39,882 nucleotides of DNA from Acidisoma sp. L85 (lineage in GTDB: Bacteria; Pseudomonadota; Alphaproteobacteria; Acetobacterales; Acetobacteraceae), in assembly GCF_009765865.1 (NCBI RefSeq), contig NZ_LMUQ01000061.1:562165-602046 (forward strand). Reading direction: 5' to 3'. The notes under the pieces are model-generated. The model was not told where the DNA came from. It ran no database searches and saw only the letters and a program-made list of their open reading frames with translations. This document shows, in pieces, positions 38,403 to 39,882 of the stretch. The position numbers and the translations under genes are program-made. The first letter of the stretch is position 1. Each line of letters opens with the position of its first letter.

Positions 38403-39185
38403 ATGATGAGCGACACCTTCACCGAGGCTGAGATCGAGCGCTATTCGCGGCATATCATGCTGCCGGAGATTGGTGGCGTCGGGCAGGCGCGGCTGCGGCG
38501 GACGAGGGTGCTGGTGATCGGGGCTGGGGGGCTCGGCAGCCCGCTGCTGCTCTATCTCGCGGCGGGCGGCGTCGGCACGATCGGGATCGTCGATGATGAC
38601 AGCGTCGATCTTTCGAACTTGCAACGTCAGATCGCACATTCCACCGGCCGCCTTGGACAAGCCAAGACAGGCTCGGCGGCGGAAGCGGCGCGGGCGATCA
38701 ATCCGCTCGTCTCGATCGTCGAGCATCGGCAGCGGCTGACGGCTTCAGAGGCTGAGGAGTTGATCGGCGGTTATGATCTGGTGTGCGACGGCTCGGATAA
38801 TTTCGCGACGCGGTATCTGGTGGCCGACGCCTGCCTTGCCGCCCGCCGCACCTTGATCTCAGCGGCGGTGTCGCGCTTCGAGGGGCAGATCACGACCTTC
38901 AAGCCGCATCTCGATGAGAGAGGCCCCTGCTACCGATGCCTCTATCCCGAGGCGCCGAGTGATGCCGCGCTCTCGGCTTGCGAGGCAGAGGGGGTGTTGG
39001 GGGCGGTGACCGGCGTCATGGGGTCGTTGCAGGCGACCGAGGCGGTTAAGGAGATCCTTGGTATTGGCGAGAGTCTATCCGGCCGCCTGCTGCTGTGGGA
39101 TGCGCTGAGCTGTCGTTTTCGCGTGATCCGTTTGCCGCGAGACCCGGACTGCCCGGGCTGCGGCCAGCGGGGGTCGTCTCACTAG
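38403..39185 (+). CDS. moeB: MoeB/ThiF-family adenylyltransferase (E1-like)
   Basis: The 260-residue protein adenylates the C-terminus of a small sulfur carrier (MoaD, ThiS or similar). ERYSRHIMLPEIGGVGQ opens the family, with the ATP site VIGAGGLGSP, the DDDSVDLSNLQRQ loop, and CDGSDNFATRY. Two CxxC pairs (CYRC and CPGC) bind zinc. SACEAEGVLGAVTG carries the region of the active cysteine. There is no C-terminal rhodanese domain. A choice between molybdopterin and thiamine pathways is not possible from this gene alone. Its stop overlaps the alternative-frame stop of the convergent gene at 39182. Confidence 0.88.
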   Translation: MMSDTFTEAEIERYSRHIMLPEIGGVGQARLRRTRVLVIGAGGLGSPLLLYLAAGGVGTIGIVDDDSVDLSNLQRQIAHSTGRLGQAKTGSAAEAARAINPLVSIVEHRQRLTASEAEELIGGYDLVCDGSDNFATRYLVADACLAARRTLISAAVSRFEGQITTFKPHLDERGPCYRCLYPEAPSDAALSACEAEGVLGAVTGVMGSLQATEAVKEILGIGESLSGRLLLWDALSCRFRVIRLPRDPDCPGCGQRGSSH

Positions 39186-39603
39186 AGTCTGGCCCCCGGG
39201 ATTGGACGGGTGTTGGCTGCGAGGCGACGGCTGAAAGCACTCGTAAAACCCTCGATCGTTTCGTCCTCGTTCGCCATGTCATCGAACGGCGATCTTTTTC
39301 CGCTGAGTAACCGCTGCTCGTTAGAGGTCGATTTCGGGTTGACGTAGCTGCCTGCTGGTTGACGTAGCTGCCTGCTGGTTGACGTAGCTGCCTGCTGAGA
39401 GTGCGCCCCCGTCTACTAGCCGACGGATTGTAGAAGAACGCTGGCATCGTGCCATTTTTGAATTGCGCCCCAGAGACTGACGCGGCGAGAGCCTCATTGA
39501 AGGCCGCTACATCCTCTGGCTTCGGGCCAATCCGACGCACGTTTCCTATCGGCTGGGTCGTGATGGGCCTCCGGACCACCGGGTCTGTTGTCCTGTATCC
39601 CAT
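39046..39603 (-). CDS. Unknown protein whose frame depends on a 20-bp tandem repeat
   Basis: The frame opens at ATG 39603 with AAAGGAAAG just upstream. The first 82 residues (MGYRTTDPVVRRPITTQPIG...) are well behaved; PKPEDVAAFNEALAAS looks helical. The codons for about residues 70-89 are three perfect 20-bp repeats (39338-39397). As sequenced, the frame then runs on through Arg/Ser-rich sequence and overlaps moeB antisense for 140 bp, to 185 residues. If one unit were missing, the product would be 133 residues with a balanced tail (NEQRLLSGKRSPFDD and FTSAFSRRLAANTRP) and would stop at 39184-39182, right against the moeB stop. So this may be an OFF or frameshifted form. I recognise no family; resemblance to secretion-system rod proteins is too weak to use. 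Confidence 0.55.
   Translation of the reverse strand: MGYRTTDPVVRRPITTQPIGNVRRIGPKPEDVAAFNEALAASVSGAQFKNGTMPAFFYNPSASRRGRTLSRQLRQPAGSYVNQQAATSTRNRPLTSSGYSAEKDRRSMTWRTRTKRSRVLRVLSAVASQPTPVQSRGPDSSETTPAGRSPGSPGLAANGSRENDSSAHPTAAGGRIDSRQYQGSP
39338..39397. repeat. Three perfect 20-bp tandem repeats
   Basis: The unit GTTGACGTAGCTGCCTGCTG is repeated at 39338-39357, 39358-39377 and 39378-39397 without any mismatch. The unit length is not a multiple of three, so each gain or loss shifts the minus-strand reading frame across it. Perfect identity points to recent or ongoing slippage or recombination. Confidence 0.97.
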
Positions 39604-39824
39604 CGCACTTTCCTTTCGATCGCGGTACCTAGACGCAACTCAGACCGCATCCTCCCGACCTAGGGCGATATGCTCGGCTCTGCAACTACAAGTAGCAATT
39701 CATTCATCGATAACTTCATATGGTTGAGTTTGCGAGGAAAACCCCTCGACTGCGTGAACAACGCGTCACACTCGCTCCGCCGCACCCGCTTGACCTGCGG
39801 AGCCAAGCTTGGCACCGACGCGGC
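39604..39824. other. Low-GC divergent intergenic region
   Basis: GC falls to about 42% in 39661-39720 by count. The region lies between the minus-strand gene starting at 39603 and the possible plus-strand start at 39825, and should hold promoters for both. A 19-codon minus-strand frame (MKLSMNELLLVVAEPSISP) is present but not convincing. Confidence 0.4.
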
Positions 39825-39882
39825 ATGAGACATCGATGGCTGCAACTTCTCGCCGTATGCGTAGTGGCGGGGGTGGCGAGGG
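39825..39882 (+). CDS. Possible exported protein, N-terminal fragment cut by the window edge
   Basis: Nineteen codons from ATG 39825 encode MRHRWLQLLAVCVVAGVAR, a positively charged start followed by a hydrophobic stretch, like a signal peptide. No good ribosome-binding site is visible, and another ATG (39834) in a different frame gives a non-hydrophobic peptide. The identity cannot be judged from so little. Confidence 0.3.
   Translation, partial: MRHRWLQLLAVCVVAGVAR

Follow-up and report, generated by a model that had tools for sequence, protein, structure and literature searches.

A perfect 20-bp tandem triplicate in an orphan reading frame beside moeB of Acidisoma sp. L85, probably derived from neutral slippage

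The window, the whole stretch of 39,882 nucleotides analyzed here, ends close to a convergent arrangement of a moeB gene and a short minus-strand open reading frame (ORF), which contains a tandem array. A gene containing an SH3 domain follows on the plus strand. For clarity, we refer to the part of the ORF upstream of the array as the head and the part downstream as the tail. The features of this region are as follows.

38403..39185, plus strand: moeB/ThiF-family adenylyltransferase gene, the convergent neighbor
39182..39337, minus strand: region downstream of the array; the two-unit frame has 51 open codons and a stop at 39182-39184, while the three-unit frame runs antisense to moeB, to 39046
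39186..39788, no strand: lower-GC segment, absent from four congeners, in place of a DsrE-like gene; the right boundary was set by eye at the CTTGACC...CTTGGCA block
39338..39397, no strand: 20-bp unit in three perfect tandem copies; the array is one base longer, to 39337
39398..39603, minus strand: head (upstream part) of the orphan ORF, with ATG at 39603, 68 codons and two further bases
39825..39882, plus strand: likely start of the SH3-domain gene, cut by an N run at the window end; the start codon was assigned by eye

N runs adjoin both ends of the window (contig positions 562098-562164 and 602047-602238), and ten such runs of 54-211 bases, either gaps of the assembly or stretches withheld, are present on the contig. 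We also notice a block with CTTGACC at 39789 and CTTGGCA at 39808, followed by the ATG at 39825. By eye, each of the four congeners has a similar block ahead of its SH3-domain gene, and the block at 39789-39827 is possibly the promoter of this gene.

The first-pass annotation had described a 20-bp triplicate at 39338..39397, and its description holds. Tandem Repeats Finder reports an array at 39337-39397 (61 bp) with a period of 20, 3.0 copies, a 100% match and a score of 122, the highest of its 14 rows in the window. The identity of the three units at 39338-39397 was verified separately by a script. No further copy of the unit, within 3 mismatches, occurs outside the array in the whole 6.4 Mb genome, and the exact unit is absent from the viral contigs searched. 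On the whole contig (606,174 bases, of which 1,353 are N), just two perfect arrays were found when we counted those with at least 2.9 copies, a length of at least 45 bp and a unit of 7-150 bp, dropping multiples of a shorter period. The array thus exceeds the expectation from base composition. The other perfect array has a 14-bp unit in 5.5 copies (contig 327928-328004) and lies between two neighboring ORFs, which we take to resemble cyclophilin-type isomerases.

Comparing the locus with its counterparts in four congeners revealed that the flanks are kept and the middle is replaced. The moeB product is 74-77% identical to its relatives there, and the order in all four is moeB, then a DsrE/DsrF-like gene, then the SH3-domain gene. 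The DsrE-like gene belongs to PF13686 (7.6e-13, from the one congener copy scanned). A DsrE-like query found matches in 4/5 genomes of the genus, and none at E up to 1 in the window's genome, which retains the SH3-domain gene after the segment. About 600 bases replace the DsrE-like gene here, and the GC content of 39186-39827 is 58%, against 65% for the whole window. No match to the DNA of the segment was found in any of the remaining four genomes of the genus. The replacement is therefore lineage-specific in this sample, with the DsrE-like gene in 4/4 congeners and the orphan DNA in 0/4.

Among the best 80 of at least 579 further moeB-like loci in GTDB, a DsrE-like match lies shortly downstream of moeB in 10, and the orphan ORF was found in none of these 80 at E 1e-4. 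The nearest named loci among them come from Komagataeibacter, Acidisphaera, Acidocella and Acidiphilium, all of which we take to be Acetobacteraceae. At the Acidocella and Acidiphilium loci, the interval from moeB to the SH3-domain gene gave no DsrE-like match, so that loss of the DsrE-like gene may be recurrent.

The ORF itself appears to be an orphan, since neither its head nor its tail had a credible homologue in the searches made; those of family, class and phylum genomes with the two-unit form scored at most 10 candidates per genome and could miss a faint relative. Comparison of orthologues, a check proposed in the first-pass annotation to see which tail is conserved, returned no credible homologue from family to phylum genomes. 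When the head was searched against 100 relatives (the own genome included), 11 non-self genomes gave matches at E up to 0.1. The two best non-self matches (E 2.6e-4 and 0.0013) carry internal stops and run antisense to one ORF that is presumably LysR-like. We rejected these matches. L008 and L009, on the minus strand, have stops inside the match and are Ser/Arg-rich; L011, also on the minus strand, is open, but it is Ala/Pro/Arg-rich. L012, L016 and L018 are all parts of the same larger protein. The remaining five (L010, L013, L014, L015 and L017) are pieces without likeness in length or context.

For the 133-residue form that two units would give, 397 family genomes yielded 11 non-self matches at E 1.8e-4 to 0.009, with identities of 27-41%. 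Internal stops are present in 8 of these 11, and every one of the 11 overlaps a different, longer ORF that has either strong third-position GC or good length. Ten run opposite to the overlapped ORF and one (L033) runs with it; the ORF overlapped in antisense by L025, L026 and L031 is a single one, which we again assume to be LysR-like. We take these 11 matches as chance similarities. Only the ORF's own two pieces were recovered at E 0.001 in 385 class and 398 phylum genomes, which are overlapping draws. Pattern matches to this form numbered 63 in GTDB contigs and 11 in viral contigs, and none was confirmed. One plasmid match (E 5) and two phage records (E 7) were dismissed as chance, as was the PDB match 6jfw (E 0.32).

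Pfam gave no match for the three-unit or the two-unit form, and the head has no family match above a curated cut-off. The FxSxx-COOH RiPP precursor family (TIGR04268) matched at E 0.004 and was rejected, with 17.4 bits against a cut-off of 28 and an alignment to residues 13-39 of 185 instead of the C-terminus. The DNA of the segment matches pieces of 27-32 bases in plasmids and phages (E 0.2-0.7), and no RNA family was found at E up to 5.

The unit of 20 bp is not divisible by three and lies inside an open frame, so that the number of units changes the reading frame. From the ATG at 39603, which by eye is preceded by a ribosome-binding-like AAAGGAAA, a script gives 80, 133 and 185 residues for one, two and three units. 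The array can be read through without a stop in each of the three minus-strand frames; arrays of 0, 3 and 6 units lead into one frame, and those of 2 and 5 units into another. The three outcomes agree with what had been claimed from the sequence. With three units, the frame continues into an Arg/Ser-rich tail and runs 140 bp into moeB on the antisense strand, with the low end of its stop at 39046. With two units, the tail of 51 residues stops at 39182-39184 and has two bases in common with the moeB stop (39183-39185). With one unit, the ORF is complete at 80 residues, ending in PEIDL before a stop at 39321-39323.

In one codon scoring of these frames, the head and the two-unit tail are both open and each ranks best of six, the head barely, while the frame of the three-unit tail ranks last. 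In dinucleotide shuffles, an open frame that scores as well arose in 1.0% of cases for the head and 1.2% for the two-unit tail. We also scored all six frames with models trained on the lower-GC genes of the contig or on all genes, and the two-unit tail is best in both models. Under the low-GC model, the two-unit frame leads an antisense frame by 1.0 (head), 1.7 (tail) and 2.7 (together) log units. Under the all-gene model, the tail leads the antisense frame by 0.7, while the head favors the antisense frame by 1.6 and the two together favor it by 0.9 log units. Pieces of real genes, which are the training genes themselves, have median margins of 7.7 (low-GC) and 8.3 (all) log units, and the true frame wins in 423/445 and 828/895 of them, respectively; for intergenic pieces, the median margin of the best frame under the low-GC model is 4.1.

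When only frames of the same strand are compared, the margin is 10.2 log units for the two-unit tail and 5.5 for the head. The tail margin is reached by 432 of the 495 real low-GC gene pieces. It is also reached by 441 of the 1,331 open windows among 3,760 overlapping intergenic windows from 106 gaps, about one in eight of all 3,760, and the head margin by 491 of 3,134 intergenic windows (874 open); this null surely holds some small real genes, which overstates chance somewhat. The coding signal of the ORF is mixed and weak.

The precise fit of the two-unit frame to the end of moeB had been read as a sign that this form is native. We notice that moeB ends in CAC TAG, which creates CTAG, its own reverse complement. 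Because CTAG is palindromic, one of the three antisense frames must carry TAG at exactly 39184-39182. Given an open tail, the chance that the fit lands in the two-unit frame is about one in three, and the fit is weak evidence for a native gene end. There is mild support for the view that the three-unit tail is not native, and none for phase variation.

A tandem array would be expected to grow from one unit. If so, the 80-residue form that the first-pass annotation had treated as OFF is likely ancestral, unless other changes also occurred upstream of the array. Such upstream changes, combined with another unit number, could also join head to tail, so that two units cannot be deduced from the reading frame by itself. 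The case suggests two cautions: CTAG context alone can make a stop codon fit the end of a convergent gene, and a two-unit form should not be taken as native until the unduplicated one-unit state has been weighed.

We compared several explanations of the array against these results. The main rival, which is unlikely in our estimate, is that a young orphan gene with a two-unit coding tail was broken by a further duplication, leaving the three-unit form as a pseudogene or as a runaway 185-residue product. The lead of 10.2 log units on its strand for the two-unit tail, together with the last rank and the Arg/Ser-rich composition of the three-unit tail, points in this direction. However, the gene would have no homologue, an antisense frame scores nearly equally, the array must presumably once have had one unit and a frame of 80 residues, and joins besides a two-unit array could connect head and tail. 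That the 80-residue one-unit form is native, its tail non-coding and its C-terminus lengthened and garbled by the array, seems quite improbable. Such a form agrees with growth from one unit and with the stop at 39321-39323, whereas the codon statistics of the tail mildly favor coding in another frame, and the head is without a homologue, its best matches being those with stops, antisense to the LysR-like ORF.

A contingency locus, in which slipped-strand mispairing would turn on a 133-residue protein at 2 or 5 units and turn it off at 1 or 3, strikes us as improbable. A perfect repeat whose length is no multiple of three, set in a frame that stays open in all three minus-strand phases, speaks for such a locus, but there are only three units, and with one genome per species the array is known in one copy-number state. 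The libraries tried, among them Pfam and the PDB, gave no match to any product that is typically switched, such as a surface or restriction-modification protein. We rate as quite improbable, too, a slippage switch that would toggle an otherwise unknown small protein among three C-terminal ends (80, 133 and 185 residues). The idea that the direct repeats are candidate protein-binding sites is very improbable. It draws on spacing and perfection only, 20 bp being about two helical turns and TTGACG occurring in each unit on the plus strand, and is opposed by the confinement of the unit to this one site, by the lack of a recognized replication or regulator gene among the adjoining ORFs and by a distance of about 430 bp to the SH3 start. 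Least credible is a wrong copy number in the draft assembly. The genome is in 85 contigs, the window ends at N runs and short repeats can mis-assemble, but the 61-bp array is shorter than common sequencing reads.

The best explanation of the array, and one we consider probable, is neutral slippage in unconserved orphan DNA. Replication slippage or unequal recombination would have added two tandem duplicates of a 20-bp sequence within a short stretch, specific to this lineage, that lies between moeB and the SH3-domain gene in place of the DsrE-like gene. The minus-strand ORF would be a non-gene or else an orphan that is young or decaying. The array would have no regulatory role, and its effect on the reading frame would be incidental. 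We infer the slippage origin, the neutrality and this order of events from perfect units at a single site, the orphan ORF, the DsrE-like gene in 4/4 congeners, the GC content of 58% and the weak coding signal, all of which seem to favor it. Against it may be set the open head and tail that are each best of six, a tail margin within the range of real genes, the ribosome-binding-like AAAGGAAA and the limited scoring of candidates.

Phase-variable contingency loci with intragenic tandem repeats occur in Neisseria, Haemophilus and other bacteria. The array ORF resembles them in that an open reading frame holds a perfect tandem repeat whose unit length is no multiple of three. It differs in its 20-bp unit, its three copies, its orphan ORF with no known switched product and its record from a single genome. 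A narrow combined query of open-licence PMC papers gave no report of a phase-variable locus in the acetic-acid bacteria family; a meningococcal paper (PMC5910500) came up in a separate query. If the array were a true switch, it would give this family a phase-variable locus whose repeat unit is long. Minisatellite or VNTR arrays, which serve in bacterial typing, are similar to the array in being short, perfect and confined to one locus, with units near 20 bp, but here the array is read in one genome only. The ORF is also comparable to the ORFans of lineage-specific segments, in that no homologues were found for it in the searches made, its GC content is lower and it occupies the place of another gene of the congeners; it differs in bearing a perfect tandem triplicate.
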